The notes below the pieces were generated by a model that had not been told where the DNA came from, made no database searches, and saw nothing but the letters and a program-made list of their open reading frames with translations. A DNA stretch of 64,000 bases from Anaerofilum sp. An201 (GTDB lineage: Bacteria; Bacillota; Clostridia; Oscillospirales; Ruminococcaceae), in NCBI RefSeq assembly GCF_002160015.1, contig NZ_NFJT01000011.1, forward strand, positions 1 through 64,000. Direction: 5' to 3'. Position numbers and translations under genes: made by a program. Positions 6,856 to 60,076 of this stretch are shown here, piece by piece; positions within the stretch are counted from its first letter, which is position 1, and every line of letters starts with the position of its first letter.

Positions 6856-6884
6856 ATTATACCATGTATTCCATTCCGATGCAC
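6856..6884 (-). promoter_or_regulatory. promoter of the HhH-ppk1 unit
   Basis: GTGCAT, 17-bp spacer, TATAAT with an upstream TGG (extended -10), ending 34 bases before the ATG. Confidence 0.6.
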
Positions 6885-6908
6885 TCGCAGAAAATGTAAA
6901 ATTTACGC

Positions 6909-6942
6909 AAAAAGCCTCGCACACTATCGCAGCGCACGAGGC
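6909..6942 (-). terminator. intrinsic terminator of the transketolase unit
   Basis: GCCTCG...CGAGGC stem (6914-6919, 6937-6942) with a run of five T on the minus strand, 12 bases after the tktC stop. Confidence 0.8.
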
Positions 6943-6953
6943 CAAAAGACTTT

Positions 6954-7898
6954 TTATTTCGCAGCCAGCTCGCGCGCTTTGGCGACAATGTTGTCCACCG
7001 TCAGGCCATACACTTCCAGCAACTCCAGAGCAGGGCCGGACGTGCCGAACTGATCCATGATCGCGACCGGAGCCACCTTGCAGGGAGCCTCGGCGCACAC
7101 CACCTCACAGACAGCGCTGTACAGCCCGCCGATCACACTGTGCTCCTCGGCAGTGACGATCCCGCCGGTCTCGCGGGCAGCAGCCAGAACAGCCTCGCGG
7201 TCGATCGGCTTGATGGTGTGCACATCCAGCACACGGGCGTGAATGCCTTCCGCAGCCAGCTGATCGGCGGCCAGCAGGGCGCGCTCCACCATCAGACCGG
7301 TGGCCATGATGGTCACATCGGCGCCTTCCCGCAGCTTTACAGTCTTTCCGATCTCAAACTGGAAGGTCTCCTCGTCGTTCACAACGGGAACCGCCAGACG
7401 GCCCAGGCGGATATACACCGGGCCATCATACTCCGCGGCGGCACGCACCGCAGCGCGCGCTTCCACATCGTCGGACGGGTTGATCACCACCATGCCGGGA
7501 ATGCTGCGCATCAGCAGCATATCCTCATTGCACTGATGGGTGGCGCCGTCTTCGCCCACCGAAATACCAGCGTGGCTTGCGCACACCTTCACATTCAGAT
7601 GCGGATATCCGATCGAGTTGCGGATCTGCTCGTAGGCACGGCCCGCCGCGAACATCGCAAAGGTGGAAGCAAAGGGGATCTTTCCGCTGGCGGCCAGGCC
7701 GGCGGCGATGCACATCATGTTGGCTTCCGCGATGCCGCAGTCGATGTGGCGCTCGGGGAACTCCTTGCGGAACACGCTGGTCCGGGTGGAATCCGCCAGA
7801 TCGGCGTCCAGCACAACAATGTTTTCATTTTCACGGCCCAGTTCAGCCAGCGCACGGCCATAACTGTCACGGGTCGCGATACGCTTGGTTTCTGCCAT
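6954..7898 (-). CDS. transketolase, C-terminal subunit
   Basis: 314 residues holding the pyrimidine-binding and C-terminal domains of transketolase. It moves two-carbon units between sugar phosphates in the non-oxidative pentose phosphate pathway. The catalytic Glu sits in DCGIAEANMMCIAAGLA (about residue 60). SHAGISVGEDGATHQ and the C-terminal fold (AEEHSVIGGLYSAVCE) follow. It cannot work without the TPP-binding subunit, whose stop lies two bases before this ATG; SD GGAGGT is inside that gene's end. Split transketolases are common in Clostridia. A 1-deoxyxylulose-5-phosphate synthase role is less likely because Dxs is a single chain. Confidence 0.93.
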   Translation of the reverse strand: MAETKRIATRDSYGRALAELGRENENIVVLDADLADSTRTSVFRKEFPERHIDCGIAEANMMCIAAGLAASGKIPFASTFAMFAAGRAYEQIRNSIGYPHLNVKVCASHAGISVGEDGATHQCNEDMLLMRSIPGMVVINPSDDVEARAAVRAAAEYDGPVYIRLGRLAVPVVNDEETFQFEIGKTVKLREGADVTIMATGLMVERALLAADQLAAEGIHARVLDVHTIKPIDREAVLAAARETGGIVTAEEHSVIGGLYSAVCEVVCAEAPCKVAPVAIMDQFGTSGPALELLEVYGLTVDNIVAKARELAAK

Positions 7899-53245: not shown

Positions 53246-53298
53246 GTAAAACTCTCCTTATTCTTCTCAAACAATTCCAAAATGAAGAATGAGTGTCC

Positions 53299-53327
53299 AG
53301 TATACAATATCTGGCGGTCATATGCAA
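53299..53327 (-). promoter_or_regulatory. promoter of the nitrite/sulfite reductase gene
   Basis: TTGCAT, 17-bp spacer, TATACT on the minus strand, about 55 bases upstream of the GTG. Confidence 0.6.
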
Positions 53328-53397
53328 CATGCCGGCCGCAAAATCCACAATTGTGCAAAAAATACTTCCAAAATCCGCCGCACACACGGCACGTCTG

Positions 53398-53427
53398 CGA
53401 ATAAACTGGAAAACAGATGGGATACTA
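53398..53427 (+). promoter_or_regulatory. sigma-G/F-like promoter of spoIVB
   Basis: CGAATA (53398-53403), 17-bp spacer, GATACTA (53421-53427). This differs by one base in each box from TGAATA-N17-CATACTA, the forespore sigma-G type consensus, and lies 30 bases before the spoIVB ATG. Confidence 0.6.
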
Positions 53428-53457
53428 ATTGTCAAATTGTGTAGGAGGGATGCCTGG

Positions 53458-54672
53458 ATGCAGTTCAAGAGACGTATCCTGCTTCGCATAGGCGCGGCTC
53501 TGACAGGCGCTGCCGTGGCGTTTGCCGCCGTGCTGTACAGTAAAGTGCCAGACACCTTGTATCTTTCCCCCGGACAGTCGCTGACCATCTCCGGCATGCC
53601 GTTTTTGCAGCCGATGTCCCGCACACAGACCACCGCCGTGGCGGGCGGCAGCTCTGCGCAGAGCCAAATGGTGGGGCTTTTTGGGCTGCTGCCCTTGAAA
53701 CGAATCCATATTCAAATCCGCGAAAAAGAGTATGTGACCGTGTGCGGAACGCCCTTTGGCATCAAAATGTTTGCAGACGGCGCGATGGTGGTGGGATTTT
53801 CGGATGTGTTCGGCACCGAAGGCTGGCGCAGCCCCGGCAAGGACGCCGGCCTGCGGATGGGCGACATCCTGGTGAGCGTGGGAGGCATCCAGACCACCGG
53901 CAACGACGATGTCCAAAAGGCGGTGCAGGCCGCGCAGGGAAACCCCGTGGAGGTGGTCTATACCCGGGAAGGACGCCGCTGCACCACCACCCTGACGCCG
54001 GTGAGGGCACAGGACGGCAGCTATAAGGCCGGCGTGTGGGTGCGGGATTCCTCCGCCGGCATCGGCACCCTTACGTTTATAAAGAAGAACGGCATCTACG
54101 GCGGACTGGGGCACCCCATCAGCGACGCCGACACCGGCCAGACCATCCAGCTGCTTTCCGGCGAGATCGTACCGGTGGAGATCACCGGCGTGAAGATCGG
54201 CCAGAGCGGAAGCCCCGGCGAATTGCAGGGAAGGTTCTCCGGCAACACAACCGGCAATATCCTCATCAACGGTGCGTCCGGCGTCTACGGGCGCATGACA
54301 GAGCAGCAGGAAGGGCTGTGGCTGCCGGTGGCCCACCGGCAGGAGGTGGAGCGCGGCGAGGCGGTGATCTACACCAGCATCGACGACACCGGCCCCCACG
54401 CCTACACCGTGCGCATCCGGCAGGCCAATCTCACCAGCGACCAGCCCAACCGCGATATGCTGATCGAAGTGACCGACCCGGCCCTTTTGGAAAAGACCGG
54501 CGGCATCGTGCAGGGAATGAGCGGCAGCCCGCTGATCCAGAACGGCCATCTGGTGGGCGCCGTGACCCACGTTCTGGTGAACGACCCCACCTGTGGATAC
54601 GCCATCTTCGCGGAAAACATGCTGGAAACCGCGGAAATCTTAGAAAAGGATACAGAAAATCAAGCGGCTTGA
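53458..54672 (+). CDS. spoIVB: SpoIVB peptidase (sporulation signalling protease)
   Basis: 404 residues. One N-terminal membrane/signal helix (GAALTGAAVAFAAVLYS). A PDZ domain covers about 110-185 (GKDAGLRMGDILVSVGG). The S55 serine protease domain carries GMSGSPLIQNGHLVGAVTHV (catalytic Ser in GMSGSP, about 353-358), with His in GLGHPISD. SpoIVB is secreted by the forespore and triggers pro-sigma-K processing. ATG 53458 follows GGAGGG. spo0A comes next, as in Bacillus. Confidence 0.95.
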   Translation: MQFKRRILLRIGAALTGAAVAFAAVLYSKVPDTLYLSPGQSLTISGMPFLQPMSRTQTTAVAGGSSAQSQMVGLFGLLPLKRIHIQIREKEYVTVCGTPFGIKMFADGAMVVGFSDVFGTEGWRSPGKDAGLRMGDILVSVGGIQTTGNDDVQKAVQAAQGNPVEVVYTREGRRCTTTLTPVRAQDGSYKAGVWVRDSSAGIGTLTFIKKNGIYGGLGHPISDADTGQTIQLLSGEIVPVEITGVKIGQSGSPGELQGRFSGNTTGNILINGASGVYGRMTEQQEGLWLPVAHRQEVERGEAVIYTSIDDTGPHAYTVRIRQANLTSDQPNRDMLIEVTDPALLEKTGGIVQGMSGSPLIQNGHLVGAVTHVLVNDPTCGYAIFAENMLETAEILEKDTENQAA

Positions 54673-54688
54673 CGATAAGTATGCGGCG

Positions 54689-54752
54689 ATATTTCCAAAA
54701 GATGGGAAATTTTTCCAACCTTGTTGCAATATCTGGAAATATATGGTAAAAT
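54689..54752 (+). promoter_or_regulatory. spo0A promoter with flanking inverted repeat
   Basis: TTGCAA (54724-54729), 17-bp spacer, TAAAAT (54747-54752) preceded by TGG. ATATTTCCA (54689-54697) and TGGAAATAT (54734-54742) form an inverted repeat bracketing the -35. I see no clear sigma-H element or Spo0A box. Confidence 0.6.
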
Positions 54753-54793
54753 TGGCATTGTTAAGGGAAAACGCAACAGGAGGAAAAAGAATC

Positions 54794-55540
54794 ATGGAAA
54801 TCGAATTTGTTATGACCGACTTGCAGTCCGATCTGACCGCCCAGTGCGTGCAGGCCCTTAGCCGCCGCGGGGTGCACACCACGGTATGCCAGAAGGACGG
54901 CGAGGCCGTACTGGCACAGCTGCAGCAGATGCATCCCACAGCCGTGTTGCTGGATGCCTTTCTGCCGGGGCTGGACGCTCTGGCGGTGAAGGAGCGCTAT
55001 GAAGCCGCCGGCGGCTCCCGCACCACCTTCCTGGCGATGGGCGGATTCCAGAACGAGGCGCTGGCCCAGCAGCTGATGGAAGCCGGTTTCGTCTTTTACT
55101 TCGTCAAGCCCTTCGACCCCGAGGTGCTGGCCGAACGGGTGGCGCGCCTCTCCTCGGCCGTTCCCTGCAACGACGCCGCCAACGACGAGATCAACGCCAC
55201 CGAGATCCTGCATCAGATCGGCGTGCCGGCGCACATCAAGGGATACCAGTTCCTGCGGGATGCCATTCTGCTGACGATGAGCGACCCGGAATATATCAAC
55301 GCCGTGACCAAGCGGCTGTATCCGCAGATCGCAAAGACCAATTCCACCACGCCTTCCCGCGTGGAGCGCGCGATCCGGCACGCCATCGAAGTGGCGTGGG
55401 ACCGCGGCGATGTGGACACGCTGAACAGCTATTTTGGGTACACCATCCACAACCTGCGCGGCAAGCCCACCAATTCCGAATTCATTGCCATGATTGCAGA
55501 CAAGATGCGTTTGGAGAAAAAGAGCCATCGCACCGCCTGA
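54794..55540 (+). CDS. spo0A: sporulation transcription factor Spo0A with a degenerate receiver
   Basis: 248 residues. The DNA-binding half (about 135-248) is near-canonical: IGVPAHIKGYQFLRDAILL, TTPSRVERAIRHAIEVAWDR and KPTNSEFIAMIADKMRLE. The receiver (1-115) is diverged: the phospho-acceptor Asp54 (VLLDAFLPGLD) and Lys105 (YFVKPFD) remain. Of the acidic metal pair only Asp9 is left (Leu10 follows), and the conserved Ser/Thr before the Lys is Ala81 (FLAMGG). ATG 54794 behind AGGAGG. It is the master sporulation regulator; how it is phosphorylated is open. Confidence 0.95.
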   Translation: MEIEFVMTDLQSDLTAQCVQALSRRGVHTTVCQKDGEAVLAQLQQMHPTAVLLDAFLPGLDALAVKERYEAAGGSRTTFLAMGGFQNEALAQQLMEAGFVFYFVKPFDPEVLAERVARLSSAVPCNDAANDEINATEILHQIGVPAHIKGYQFLRDAILLTMSDPEYINAVTKRLYPQIAKTNSTTPSRVERAIRHAIEVAWDRGDVDTLNSYFGYTIHNLRGKPTNSEFIAMIADKMRLEKKSHRTA

Positions 55541-55654: not shown

Positions 55655-55685
55655 AAAAAAGCCCCCGATCTGTACGATCGGGGGC
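55655..55685 (-). terminator. terminator of the SPFH-zinc-ribbon-TPM unit
   Basis: Perfect 10-bp stem GCCCCCGATC/GATCGGGGGC (55661-55670, 55676-55685) followed by T6 on the minus strand. Confidence 0.85.
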
Positions 55686-55778: not shown

Positions 55779-56543
55779 TCAGAACTTGCCGCTGGTGCCG
55801 GAGAATCCGCCGCTGCCAGAGGAGGAACCGTGCCCGCCGGACTGGCTGCGCGGCTGTTCGATCCGGCGGCGGGATTCGGTGGTGTGTGTGTAGATATCGT
55901 CGCGCACCCGCCATTTTTCACTTCCCTGCAGCAAATACATTCTGGCCTGTGCACCGATTTTCACCGATTTCATCTTCGACTTCAGAGTCATGACCACGAT
56001 GAGAGCAACGGCAGCCGGGCAGACCAGCACCACAACAATGCCGAGCATCCCCTGTTTGAAGTGATCGCCGGAAAGAGCCTTGCCGCTGTTTTCCAGATAG
56101 GCCTGGAATCCGTTGTTCCAGTCGTTCCTTCCGAAATAGGACAGAAAACTGTCGGCGATGTCCTCCCGGGCGGTCTGGTCAAAGATCCGGTTGGCCAAAT
56201 TCCCGTGACAGATCAAAGCGTAGTCGGGCTCCGACATACTGAGCAGCAGCAGTATGCCATCGTGCTGCGCACCCACGCCCATATTTTTCTCCTGATAAAT
56301 CTTCTCGGCAGCATCCTGCACATCGCTGCCGGAATCGCGGTAGTTGTCAACCGTGGCGATATACAGCCCGCAGTCGTACTTTTTGGTATACTTGGCGGCC
56401 AGATCGTTCAACTGCTGCTCCTGCTGTTCGTCCAGCAGCTGCGCCTCGTCGAACACATAGCTCCCGGATGCGTCTGCCGCTGCCGGAACCGCCAGCAGCA
56501 CCAGAAACAGCGCCGCCAGCAGTGCAAAAAACTTTCGTTTCAT
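55779..56543 (-). CDS. TPM-domain membrane protein (YdjH/YgcG-like)
   Basis: 254 residues. Signal peptide 1-24 (FFALLAALFLVLLAVPAAA). A TPM domain covers about 28-150 (YVFDEAQLLDEQQEQQLND, YDCGLYIATVDNYRD, GVGAQHDGILLLLSM). A membrane helix lies at about 166-187. The cytosolic tail ends in a Ser/Gly-rich stretch. TPM domains face outwards in this class. It resembles Bacillus YdjH by domain layout and by company: it follows a zinc-ribbon and an SPFH gene in one unit, starting five bases after the former. Membrane-stress function is inferred. Confidence 0.85.
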   Translation of the reverse strand: MKRKFFALLAALFLVLLAVPAAADASGSYVFDEAQLLDEQQEQQLNDLAAKYTKKYDCGLYIATVDNYRDSGSDVQDAAEKIYQEKNMGVGAQHDGILLLLSMSEPDYALICHGNLANRIFDQTAREDIADSFLSYFGRNDWNNGFQAYLENSGKALSGDHFKQGMLGIVVVLVCPAAVALIVVMTLKSKMKSVKIGAQARMYLLQGSEKWRVRDDIYTHTTESRRRIEQPRSQSGGHGSSSGSGGFSGTSGKF

Positions 56544-56548
56544 TTGCC

Positions 56549-57634
56549 TTACCTTCCCCCATACAGCATGCAAAACACCAGCGCCAGAGCCGACAGCGGC
56601 GCCATCGTAGCGAAAAATATTGCCCAGAAGCGCTTCCAGCTGATGGGAAGGTCGCCAACCATCTTTCCTGTCTGGCCGTTCATGGCAAACAGGTAGTTGT
56701 TGCCCTTCCACCGGGTGCTGAGCAGCCACACCGGCAGCAGCGCCTGCCGCATCTTGGTGCGTTCGAGGTTGATCTTCTCATCAGTCAGCGTACAGCTGTC
56801 GTAGCCGGTGACGGTTCCGCGGATAAACTCCCGTGCAGAATTGCGGCAGCGCGTCTCGATCCGTCCCGTGCAATCTTCCGCGCTGATGTCGTATTTGTCG
56901 GCCAGAAAGCCCGGAAGGTAGGCGGTGGAAAAGGGCTTCATCTCGCTGTAGTTGAACGGCTCCAGAGAATCCATGTAATCGTCCGGCATCTTGGAGGACG
57001 CATCGGCCGGCACCCGCTCGAATTCCAGCGTTCCAGCGCGCCGCACATTGTAGTGCCGTGTTGTGATGATCTCATAATCGCCCCGGCGATGCACACTGCT
57101 GCGGGTGGCGTGGAAGGTCTGGTCCACGTCCGCGTGCATATCCATCAGCCAGAAAGGAACGTACACGCCGCGGATCTCCTGGATATGGCTGTCGCTTCGG
57201 AATTCTTTGGGCAGCAGGATTTTGTTTTTGTAATGCCGCCTGAGCGCATTTTCCGCCTCCTGTTTGTCCAATTGGAAGGGGATCACATAATTCGGCTCGA
57301 ACACGCCGGTCAGCTGGCCGGGCACCACCGACGGATTGCCGCAATAGGGGCAGCTGGTGGCGGCGGTGGTCTGGTCGCAGACCAGCTGCGCCGAACAGGA
57401 GGGGCAGGTGTAGACCCGGAGGTCCGCCTGTGCGGCTTCCTGCGCGGGGTTGGCCTGCTGTTCATTCTGGAATGCCTCGACGGCCTTCTCTTCCTTTTCG
57501 GCATACAGCGCCTCGATCTCGGCCACGTCATAGGAGGAACCGCAGTATTCACATTCCAGCTTTCCGCTGGAGGCCACAAATTTCAGCGGGGCGGTACAGG
57601 CCGGGCACTGATAGTTCGTCACTTGTGTGGGCAT
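56549..57634 (-). CDS. double zinc-ribbon membrane-associated protein (YdjG-like)
   Basis: 361 residues. Two TFIIB-like zinc ribbons lie at the N-terminus: CPACTAPLKF ... CEYCGSSYDV (about 10-32) and CPSCSAQLVCDQ ... CPYCGNPSVV (about 70-95). A conserved mixed region follows (VFEPNYVIPFQLDKQEAENA, GVYVPFWLMDMHADVDQTFH). The C-terminus has one or two membrane helices (FWAIFFATMAPLSALALVFC). This is the layout of Bacillus YdjG. SD AAGGAGAG. Partners are the SPFH gene before and the TPM gene after. Confidence 0.82.
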   Translation of the reverse strand: MPTQVTNYQCPACTAPLKFVASSGKLECEYCGSSYDVAEIEALYAEKEEKAVEAFQNEQQANPAQEAAQADLRVYTCPSCSAQLVCDQTTAATSCPYCGNPSVVPGQLTGVFEPNYVIPFQLDKQEAENALRRHYKNKILLPKEFRSDSHIQEIRGVYVPFWLMDMHADVDQTFHATRSSVHRRGDYEIITTRHYNVRRAGTLEFERVPADASSKMPDDYMDSLEPFNYSEMKPFSTAYLPGFLADKYDISAEDCTGRIETRCRNSAREFIRGTVTGYDSCTLTDEKINLERTKMRQALLPVWLLSTRWKGNNYLFAMNGQTGKMVGDLPISWKRFWAIFFATMAPLSALALVFCMLYGGR

Positions 57635-57666
57635 TGTCTCTCTCCTTCCGATGCATGCGGCACGGG

Positions 57667-59052
57667 TCAGTTTTTCATGTCCGTATCGGTGAAGGGATCG
57701 CCGCACTCGGGGCAGAATTTGGGCGGATGCCGGGGGTCTTCCGGCTCCCATCCGCATTTATCACACCGGTAGAGCGGCGCACCGGCCGGCTTTTTGCTGC
57801 CGCACTCGGAGCAGAATTTGCCCTTGTTCACCGCGCCGCAGGAACAGGTCCACCCCTGCGGGGCCGCGGGACGGGGCTGGCCGCATTCGGGGCAGAAATT
57901 GCCGGTGGCGACGGCGCCGCAGCTGCATTTCCAGCTTTCGGCGGGAACTGGCTTGGGGCTGCCGCAAGCGGAACAGAAATTGCCGGTGTTGCCGGTCTGG
58001 CCGCAGCTGCAGGTCCAGCTCTGTGCTGCGGCGGCAGCCTGCTGCTGGCCCATCTGGTAGAGGTTTTGGGCGTTGAATCCGCCCGCCTGCGCCGCCATGT
58101 TCATGTTCATGAAAGCCAGCGCCGGGCCGGTGGCCTGATTGCCGGCCGCCGTGCGCAGCGCGTCGGCCTGTGCGCGCGCCAGATTGGCCGCCGCACGGGA
58201 GGGGTCGGTGAAGGCCGCGTTCACCTGCAGCTCCCGGATCATCTTCTCGTCCTCCTCGTCGGCCGTGACCGAGGAGACGCCCACCGAAACGATCTCGATG
58301 CCGCGCTTTTCCTTCCACTGGGACGAAAGCTCCTGGTTCAGCGCCCGGGCCATCTCGGCGGTGTGGCCGGGCAGCGCCGAATAGCGCACGCCCATTGCGC
58401 TGATGCGGGCAAACGCCGGCTGCAGCGCGGTGAGCAGCTCGGTTTTGAGCTGGCTGTCCAGCTGGGAACGGGTGTATGCCTGCTCCACGTTGCCGCACAC
58501 ATTGGTGTAGAACAGCAACGGGTTGCAGATGCGGTAGCTGTATTCGCCGAAGCAGCGGATGGAGATGTCGATGTCGATGCCGGCGCGTTGGTCCACCACA
58601 CGGAACGGGACCGGATTGGCCGTGCCGTATTTGTTGCCGAGCATTTCCTTTGTGTTGAAGTAGTAGACGCGCTGGTCCCGCGCGGTATCGCCGCCGAAGG
58701 TGATGCGCCGGCCGACGGCCTTGAAGGTCTCGATGATGCTGTCGTCGAGGTTACCGGCAAAAATGCTGGGCTCCAACGAGGCGTCGTAGGTGAACTCGCC
58801 CGGTTCGGCGCACACCTCCACCACCTTGCCCTGGTCCACGATCATCATGCACTGCCCGTCGGCCACCGCAATGACCGAGCCGTTCGTGATGATGTTGTCG
58901 CTGCCCTTTTTGTTGCTGGAACGCCCCGAGGTGCGCTTCCGGCCCCGGACAGCCAGAACATTCTCTGGCAGAGAATCGCAGAAAAAATATTCCTTCCACT
59001 GGTCGGCGAGCACCCCGCTCACAGACCCCAGCGCAGCTTTGATCAGGCCCAT
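57667..59052 (-). CDS. SPFH-domain protein with four C-terminal zinc ribbons (YdjI-like)
   Basis: 461 residues. The SPFH/band-7-like domain covers about 25-330 (DISIRCFGEYSYRICNPLLF, YSALPGHTAEMARALNQELS, GIEIVSVGVSSVTADEEDEK). An Ala/Gln-rich hinge (about 310-345) leads to four zinc ribbons: CSCG...CSACG, CSCG...CPECG, CSCG...CSECG and CDKCG...CPECG. Bacillus YdjI has the SPFH domain and acts with PspA, YdjG and YdjH at the membrane; four ribbons are more than usual. It lacks a signal peptide, so it is cytosolic and scaffold-forming by inference. SD GGAGGA. First gene of the unit. Confidence 0.87.
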   Translation of the reverse strand: MGLIKAALGSVSGVLADQWKEYFFCDSLPENVLAVRGRKRTSGRSSNKKGSDNIITNGSVIAVADGQCMMIVDQGKVVEVCAEPGEFTYDASLEPSIFAGNLDDSIIETFKAVGRRITFGGDTARDQRVYYFNTKEMLGNKYGTANPVPFRVVDQRAGIDIDISIRCFGEYSYRICNPLLFYTNVCGNVEQAYTRSQLDSQLKTELLTALQPAFARISAMGVRYSALPGHTAEMARALNQELSSQWKEKRGIEIVSVGVSSVTADEEDEKMIRELQVNAAFTDPSRAAANLARAQADALRTAAGNQATGPALAFMNMNMAAQAGGFNAQNLYQMGQQQAAAAAQSWTCSCGQTGNTGNFCSACGSPKPVPAESWKCSCGAVATGNFCPECGQPRPAAPQGWTCSCGAVNKGKFCSECGSKKPAGAPLYRCDKCGWEPEDPRHPPKFCPECGDPFTDTDMKN

Positions 59053-59126: not shown

Positions 59127-59154
59127 ATTATATCACAAAACAGCGGATTCGCAA
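59127..59154 (-). promoter_or_regulatory. promoter of the SPFH-zinc-ribbon-TPM unit
   Basis: TTGCGA, 16-bp spacer, TATAAT preceded by TGA (extended -10). The gap 59053-59344 otherwise holds only the divergent promoter below. Confidence 0.6.
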
Positions 59155-59344: not shown

Positions 59345-60076
59345 ATGAATGAAAACAAATACGACGACGAGATTTTTTTTGAAAAGTACAGCCAGATGGC
59401 ACGCTCCCGGCAGGGGCTGAAGGGCGCCGGCGAATGGAGCGAGCTGCAGAAGCTGCTGCCGGATTTCCACGGAAAGCGCGTGCTGGACCTGGGCTGCGGG
59501 TACGGCTGGCACTGCAAATATGCCGCCGAACACGGCGCGGCCTCGGTGCTGGGGATCGATCTTTCCGAAAAGATGCTGCAAATCGCCCGCCGGCTGAATC
59601 CCGCGCCCTGCATCGAATACCGCCGCGCCGCCATGGAGGACCTGCGCTTTGACGCGTGCAGCTTCGATGTGGTGCTCAGCTCGCTGGCCTTCCATTATGT
59701 GCGCGACTTCGCCCCGCTGGCGGACAACATCGCACACTGGCTCTGCAAAGGCGGCGACCTGGTCTTTTCGGTGGAACATCCGGTTTTCACCGCCTACGGT
59801 TCGCAGGACTGGTACTACGACCAGGACGGGAAGATCCTGCATTTCCCGGTGGACAATTACTACTACGAGGGACAGCGGCAGGCCATTTTTCTGGGAGAAC
59901 CGGTGACCAAATACCACCGCACCCTCACCACCTACCTGCACACCCTGCTGCAAAAAGGGTTCATGCTCACCGATGTTGTGGAACCGCAGCCTCCGGCAGA
60001 GATGATGCATCTTGCCGGGATGAAGGATGAGATGCGCCGTCCGATGATGCTGCTGGTGGCGGCGCGCAAGCTCTGA
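59345..60076 (+). CDS. class I SAM-dependent methyltransferase
   Basis: 243 residues. Motif I is VLDLGCGYGWHCKYAAEHGA; acidic motif II is VLGIDLSEKML. FDVVLSSLAFHYVRDFAPLA and HPVFTAYGSQDWYYDQDG match the UbiE/SmtA-like small-molecule methyltransferases. Substrate not predictable. ATG 59345 behind AGGGGAGG. Lone plus-strand gene, ending before the repeat-rich gap. Confidence 0.88.
   Translation: MNENKYDDEIFFEKYSQMARSRQGLKGAGEWSELQKLLPDFHGKRVLDLGCGYGWHCKYAAEHGAASVLGIDLSEKMLQIARRLNPAPCIEYRRAAMEDLRFDACSFDVVLSSLAFHYVRDFAPLADNIAHWLCKGGDLVFSVEHPVFTAYGSQDWYYDQDGKILHFPVDNYYYEGQRQAIFLGEPVTKYHRTLTTYLHTLLQKGFMLTDVVEPQPPAEMMHLAGMKDEMRRPMMLLVAARKL

Follow-up and report, generated by a model that had tools for sequence, protein, structure and literature searches.

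A predicted three-gene operon of Anaerofilum sp. An201 related to the YdjGHI core, without PspA and with an SPFH protein of another clade

In Bacillus subtilis the genes run in the order pspA, DZR (ydjG), TPM (ydjH) and SPFH (ydjI) in one operon, and deletion of ydjG or ydjH abolished the membrane recruitment of YdjI and PspA, according to the accessible text of the report (PMC8581546). Proteins of the YdjGHI kind are treated as PspA partners in the available portions of the literature (PMC8581546, PMC9239133, PMC11237479). Ravi et al. 2024 (PMC11237479) deal with the same TPM, band-7 and zinc-ribbon domains as partner domains of PspA and propose a chaperone-like assembly role; the ydj-type context is described there with pspA, and a PspA-free version was not found in the accessible parts of that study. 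Here we analyse a stretch of 64,000 nt from Anaerofilum sp. An201 (contig NZ_NFJT01000011.1, positions 1 to 64,000; hereafter the window), which carries genes for an SPFH protein, a double-zinc-ribbon membrane protein (DZR) and a TPM protein, with no adjoining pspA gene. A literature search returned no account of a PspA-free trio among the papers listed, and subscription papers lay mostly outside it.

An SPFH-DZR-TPM trio and the clade of its SPFH protein

The original prediction, made from the letters of the window, had placed here an SPFH protein with four C-terminal zinc ribbons, a DZR and a TPM protein, and the three genes were confirmed on the minus strand. The trio is related to the YdjGHI core but lacks PspA and has an SPFH protein from another clade, and on both grounds we do not class it among PspA-YdjGHI systems. 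The comparison with pspA-ydjGHI was made with the operons of two genomes, G126 and G164 (order pspA, DZR, TPM, SPFH), and not with the B. subtilis sequence. The window DZR aligns with that of the G164 operon at 36% identity over most of its length (E 4e-82) and is of YdjG type, and the TPM protein aligns with its G164 counterpart at 22% identity (E 2e-10), sharing its tail, and is of YdjH type; its TPM domain belongs to that family and gave a sequence match in the PDB (7tbr, E 0.0013). BLASTP found no significant alignment of the window SPFH protein to that of G164 outside the ribbons, and it is not of the pspA-linked (YdjI) type. The pspA-ydjGHI operon likewise joins a DZR, a TPM protein and a soluble SPFH protein with a C-terminal ribbon, as far as the accessible text of PMC8581546 and PMC11237479 goes. 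In the window, however, the SPFH gene stands first rather than last, its product belongs to a separate clade and has four ribbons rather than one, PspA is absent from operon and genome, and the operon has a sigma-70-like promoter with no sigma-W-like motif seen.

A PF13421 match over cut-off, together with best fold matches of probability 1.00, places the first protein in the SPFH superfamily. Its structure model, with a predicted local distance difference test score (pLDDT) of 78 and a predicted template modelling score (pTM) of 0.54, matches the structures of stomatin (E 1e-8), HflK/C, prohibitin, flotillin and Erlin, which form oligomers. It shares the SPFH fold with the ring- or cage-forming stomatin, HflK/C, prohibitin and flotillin, but differs from them in having C-terminal ribbons, short helices after the SPFH domain and no visible N-terminal membrane helix; by eye there is no transmembrane helix anywhere in the protein.

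In a quick SPFH tree of 78 rows, supported by the Shimodaira-Hasegawa-like approximate likelihood ratio test (SH-aLRT) only, the window protein falls in a clade of 61 (SH-aLRT 99), and four labelled pspA-adjacent SPFHs form, with that of genome G003, one separate clade of five (SH-aLRT 100). The tree took in a chosen 26 of 80 named loci, B. subtilis YdjI is not among its rows, the SPFH of L082 (G017), cut by the contig end, was left out, and a long-branch warning attaches to L089, near the window's clade. In one of the 61 rows (L126) pspA adjoins the SPFH gene. The four labelled pspA-adjacent SPFHs accompany two different DZR kinds, and it is thus the SPFH protein, more than the DZR, that goes with PspA. 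Counted by pattern, the pspA-adjacent rows (n=5, one of them cut short) have at most one ribbon, and 92 of the 100 rows with no pspA adjacent have two to four, L126 being counted among these 100 though PspA adjoins it. The window's SPFH protein is ribbon-rich and belongs to another clade than the pspA-linked SPFHs.

The DZR tree (79 rows, midpoint root) was built from a chosen 32 of the 80 named loci, with DZR frames shorter than 300 aa and L084 left out. The window stands in a clade of 55 rows (support 82/80), and operons of this kind are also found in another clade, of 12 rows (86/94); both together are referred to here as the window's DZR type, which need not be one clade, since the tree does not resolve the node joining both with the DZRs of the G126 and G164 pspA operons. 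A divergent clade of eight rows (100/99) holds, among the relatives, G003, G017, G039, G042 and G047.

A search of the host assembly (3.22 Mb, 99.1% complete) with PF04012 returned no PspA match, whereas the same search was positive in nine of 14 control genomes; the host has pspA neither in this operon nor elsewhere in its genome. Across the host and 60 relatives, DZR was found in 28 genomes, PspA in 12 (10 over cut-off), TPM in 34 and Band_7_1 in 38. Eighteen of the 23 genomes of the window's DZR type in this set lack PspA over cut-off (one, G045, has a single weak match below it), and five have PspA on another contig. A 199-genome phylum sample, in which at most 14 PspA candidates per genome were scored (14 of 17 in G201), added eight genomes of this type, four without PspA and four with PspA on another contig, so that 22 of 31 lack PspA over cut-off. 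The cut-short DZR of G168, absent from the tree, was assigned to the window's type by identity, and the weak DZR place G039:C6 was left out. The pspA gene stands directly before DZR in G017, G042, G126, G164 and G254.

The trio is widespread, and its gene order is conserved across many bacteria. Among the relatives' DZR loci with room on both sides, window included, SPFH lies directly upstream and TPM directly downstream in 17 of 28, and the same order is found in 37 of 68 such loci in named genomes, drawn from the 80 best of 592 confirmed places; 6 of 34 and 12 of 80 loci, respectively, had too little flanking sequence and were left out. Because loci were chosen by their DZR, the fractions apply to DZR loci alone. 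The mapped loci come from Oscillospiraceae, Lachnospiraceae, Erysipelotrichaceae, Treponema and Coriobacteriia, among others, and of six in Coriobacteriia (L147, L149, L155, L156, L159, L160) a TPM gene is present in L149 only. In an Enterococcus gallinarum record, genes annotated SPFH, hypothetical protein and TPM are flanked by dnaX and a gene for a pyridoxal-phosphate-dependent enzyme, and the predicted setting "in an anaerobe" is therefore not specific to the trio. With the SPFH tree, these counts uphold the proposal of a PspA-free trio, conserved far beyond the strain, whose ribbon-rich SPFH protein is distinct from the pspA-linked ones; nor is the SPFH gene usually found alone, though six SPFHs of this type among the mapped relatives lie away from any DZR. 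In Bacillota, Spirochaetota and Actinomycetota the DZR-TPM pair often lacks PspA and is accompanied by a different SPFH, and the core rather than PspA would then be the constant part.

A further arrangement is seen on Vibrio and Paracoccus replicons and in G152 and G078, where an SPFH gene lies directly 5' of a DZR homologue with no adjoining TPM gene. These SPFHs belong to another clade than the window's, and those of Vibrio and Paracoccus have a C-terminal domain without ribbons, unlike the window protein. The Vibrio and Paracoccus pairs lie in L233 (2891-5044) and L234 (2851-5287), the Paracoccus pair being near a gene annotated as toxic anion resistance protein.

The membrane helix and tail of the TPM protein

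Judged by eye, the TPM protein starts with a signal-peptide-like N-terminus and carries its TPM domain externally, followed by a single membrane helix and a tail in the cytosol; TPM C-termini run from the helix through a juxtamembrane tail to a Gly/Ser-rich end. In an alignment of 28 rows, viewed also for the active-site cluster of a possible TPM phosphatase or ATPase, A200, G252 and F254 are invariant and Y203, D216 and G246 nearly so in the last 66 residues, and D32 is invariant and L45, R106, G114, F146 and G159 nearly so in the external part; the density of conserved residues is about twice as high in the former. A profile of helix plus tail matches the DZR C-terminus in some loci, mostly without the Gly/Ser-rich terminus. 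Visual inspection places the tail in the cytosol whichever protein bears it: in the TPM protein it follows the external domain and a single helix, in the DZR a second helix. Since the TPM proteins of the G126 and G164 pspA operons also have the tail, it is not confined to the PspA-free type.

The segment occurs on 11 of 21 DZR frames without a TPM gene (within 4 kb, same strand) but on one of 101 with such a gene. In other terms, 12 of 122 DZR frames bear it (one with a TPM gene) and 110 do not (100 with one), which gives a Fisher p of 3e-9 on related rows; DZR frames with at least 1.2 kb downstream were counted, leaving out 9 of 131. Scored for 74 rows of the tree, the segment must have changed at least five times; of five independent pairs, an average of 3.9 run opposite to the TPM gene, 1.1 show no difference and none runs parallel to it. 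The helix and tail have been transferred between the two proteins, and they constitute a portable segment, described here for the first time. On the simplest reading, the complex would need helix and tail, the external TPM domain being optional. This small, testable segment (a membrane helix and a tail of ∼44 residues) could inform how soluble SPFH proteins are held at bacterial membranes.

A membrane scaffold and its alternatives

The reading that we favour, with a probability of about one half, is that the operon makes an SPFH scaffold which works without PspA and lies at the cytosolic side of the cell membrane, docked there by the DZR and the tail. The SPFH protein, soluble by itself, would probably self-assemble into a ring or a similar oligomer, as its fold suggests, and two partners would hold it at the membrane: the DZR, cytosolic and anchored by its C-terminal membrane helix, and the TPM protein, whose single helix and cytosolic tail would be the docking part and whose external domain could serve as an optional sensor or envelope-side scaffold. 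A ribbon-rich SPFH subfamily would here replace YdjI, with the PspA output absent and the ribbons presumably binding protein partners. We infer from these elements that the trio likely functions like YdjGHI as a membrane scaffold, probably keeping a protein assembly apposed to the membrane from the cytosolic side, and that it may contribute to membrane maintenance. In favour of this reading stand the conserved gene order, the lack of PspA over cut-off in the host and in most genomes of its DZR type, the fold matches to membrane oligomers, the homology of the DZR and the TPM protein to partners that YdjI and PspA need for membrane recruitment in B. subtilis, the separate clade of the pspA-adjacent SPFHs and the distribution of the helix-plus-tail segment.

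Several observations weigh against such a scaffold. The helices after the SPFH domain are short, in contrast to HflK/C, which have long coiled coils. PspA is encoded on another contig in nine of the 31 genomes of the window's DZR type, and in L126 (Candidatus Faecousia) a PspA frame (6874-7773) begins 59 nt after the SPFH gene. Nor is the trio fixed: six window-type SPFHs among the relatives have no nearby DZR (a second copy in L052, L061 and L085-L088), some loci are permuted (L065, L105, L111, L149), G041 has DZR and TPM with no Band_7_1 match, and in G047 a window-type SPFH precedes a DZR of the divergent clade (L078). As to the portable segment, the sign test gave a median p of 0.125, five pairs cannot reach 0.05, and the association rests on related rows. 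The only tailed DZR with a TPM gene next to it (L062) is an extra DZR lying downstream of an ordinary DZR-TPM pair, and ten of the 21 DZRs without a TPM gene also lack the tail, neither being found in L078, L079, L083 and L187-L189 (divergent clade), in the long-branched L200, or in L084, L091 and L116. An SPFH gene lies within 4 kb of five of the 12 segment-bearing DZRs as against 79 of the 100 TPM-type DZRs, and this makes it less likely that the tail is there to dock the SPFH protein.

The terminal ribbon could have a part of its own. The C-terminus of the L126 PspA is a close copy of the terminal zinc ribbon of the neighbouring SPFH protein, and in G056 (L055, 3645-5545) two further proteins with an SPFH-type terminal ribbon are encoded between SPFH and DZR, one of them resembling what we take to be DUF4428 proteins. 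Both cases point weakly to a tag role for the terminal ribbon and are no more than suggestive of the ribbons as an assembly hub, as the original prediction had it. On the other hand, a terminal-ribbon profile matched the SPFH protein alone in the host genome, which argues against a general ribbon tag, and among the matches listed for 391 genomes from the class, with up to six candidates scored in each, there was no second PspA with a ribbon (one G578 match of residues 1-288, with stops inside it, was set aside). A modular membrane hub, in which a helix-plus-tail on TPM or DZR captures the SPFH ring, the terminal ribbon serves as a portable address tag recruiting ribbon-bearing proteins such as the L126 PspA and the G056 pair, and PspA is one of several interchangeable outputs, is a tentative extension of the scaffold that we consider less likely than not.

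Among the alternatives, a scaffold for membrane-protein quality control or a protease adaptor, comparable to the HflK/C- or prohibitin-FtsH assemblies and with ribbons that recruit substrates or the protease, appears rather unlikely, though it survives better than the others. The fold matches to HflK/C and prohibitin, including HflK/C-FtsH complexes, agree with it, as does the variable ribbon number, which fits a recruiting array; however, neighbouring genes differ in size from locus to locus and thus suggest no constant protease gene, and the N-terminal membrane helix of HflK/C is not seen in the window protein.

The trio might also be an ordinary YdjGHI-PspA membrane-stress system whose PspA is encoded elsewhere or was missed. 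The homology of its DZR and TPM protein to the partners in pspA operons speaks for this, as do the genomes with PspA on another contig and the adjacent PspA of L126. The clean PF04012 search of a nearly complete assembly largely refutes it for the host genome, most relatives of the same DZR type lack PspA over cut-off as well, and the SPFH protein lies outside the pspA-linked clade and is encoded first, not last; we regard this explanation as improbable.

That the trio is a redox- or zinc-sensing regulator whose DZR binds nucleic acid is very improbable. The YdjG ribbon is described as a DNA-binding kind in the accessible text of PMC9239133, and the eight DZR cysteines are all invariant in 23 rows (in a further set of 45 rows this holds for six, and almost for the other two), but the ribbons share the protein with a long beta domain and a hydrophobic helix at its C-terminus, and they resemble many ribbon kinds, each at low score, without pointing to DNA. 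The defence role against bacteriocins or phage offered by the original prediction is the least likely of all and finds no support here apart from one weak ribbon match. In its favour, phage SPP1 is said to activate the pspA-ydjGHI operon of B. subtilis, and YdjI was found together with the cyclase of a cyclic-oligonucleotide-based anti-phage signalling system (CBASS) in a band of high mass, in the accessible text of PMC11153139; of the PADLOC families at E 0.01, one matched DZR weakly (PDC-S64, E 6e-4) and none matched SPFH or TPM. Against it, that match takes in residues 7-100 of DZR, the ribbon part only, the neighbours in one annotated trio copy, that of Enterococcus, are housekeeping genes, and phage records are few and doubtful (DZR in 8 of 50,697, none annotated and six under 9 kb; SPFH in nine), DZR being found in 12 of 72,556 plasmid records.

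Features of the locus and neighbouring genes

Table 1. Coordinates of the genes, domains and signals of the trio in the window
Feature	Coordinates	Strand	Basis
SPFH (Band_7_1) gene, first of the operon	57667..59052	-	461 aa; PF13421 E 4.3e-16, over cut-off
SPFH domain proper, residues 52-274	58231..58899	-	Pfam PF13421 match
Four zinc ribbons of SPFH, residues 348-451	57700..58011	-	alignment A3, ribbon profile A5
DZR (double-zinc-ribbon membrane protein, YdjG-like) gene	56549..57634	-	361 aa; longest open frame 402 aa
DZR C-terminal helix, residues 333-359, presumed membrane anchor	56558..56638	-	structure model; hydrophobic by eye
TPM protein (YdjH-like) gene	55779..56543	-	254 aa; longest open frame 316 aa; PF04536
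TPM domain	56088..56456	-	PF04536 E 1.4e-20, over cut-off
Membrane helix and juxtamembrane tail of TPM, residues 166-232	55848..56048	-	helix-plus-tail profile
Sigma-70-like promoter, extended -10	59127..59154	-	10/12 matches, TG before -10
Intrinsic-terminator-like hairpin, 10-pair stem then TTTTTT	55661..55685	-	pattern search

The gaps between the genes are short (32 nt from SPFH to DZR, 5 nt from DZR to TPM), and Shine-Dalgarno-like stretches are visible by eye 5' of each of the three chosen starts. Promoter-like sites are more frequent in the 6 kb searched than in shuffled sequence (5 versus a mean of 1.5, sd 1.1), whereas the eight terminator-like sites show no excess (mean 6.0, sd 2.8). 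A single shared transcript for the three genes may be deduced from this layout. The commonly known sigma-W consensus was used to look for a sigma-W-like motif, and none was seen in the 293 nt upstream of the SPFH gene. An NCBIfam scan of the three proteins gave nothing above any cut-off.

The ribbons of the SPFH protein span residues 348-364, 376-391, 403-418 and 430-451, the last corresponding to 57765-57700. An amphipathic N-terminal membrane helix was considered for this protein and dropped, the hydrophobic moment of residues 2-19 being at the 49th percentile of its own windows. Alignments A2, A3 and A4 comprise 44 of 64, 41 of 53 and 27 of 42 listed rows, each plus the window.

In its structure model (pLDDT 93.8) the DZR has two N-terminal zinc ribbons, with four CxxC knuckles, a domain with two long beta hairpins and one C-terminal helix. 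Pfam placed no family above cut-off, its DZR model scoring 18 bits against a cut-off of 27.3. A relation to NTF2-like or YpeB proteins has been proposed for the beta domain of DZR-type proteins in the accessible text of PMC11237479. Foldseek gave no match to this domain at E 0.001 or better, which does not show a new fold, and in a second fold comparison the best Z was 3.8 over 56 residues, none of the 50 rows being named NTF2-like or YpeB. Pore-forming proteins among the fold matches had a probability of 0.12 or less and were ignored.

Two or three tandem TPM domains occur in frames of L074 (7059-8732, genome G059), L055 (298-1455), L059 (7090-8382) and L064 (4760-6169). In the host's own genus, L079 (5818-8203, genome G003) combines a pspA-type SPFH with a divergent DZR behind an ABC transporter-like gene (by eye), and the G003 genome gave no PspA match.

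Convergent with the trio, on the plus strand, lie SpoIVB peptidase-like and Spo0A-like genes (53293-54672 and 54743-55540, by eye), which suggest a spore-forming host. On the other side, a methyltransferase-like gene (59345-60076, plus strand, by eye) is divergent from the SPFH gene.

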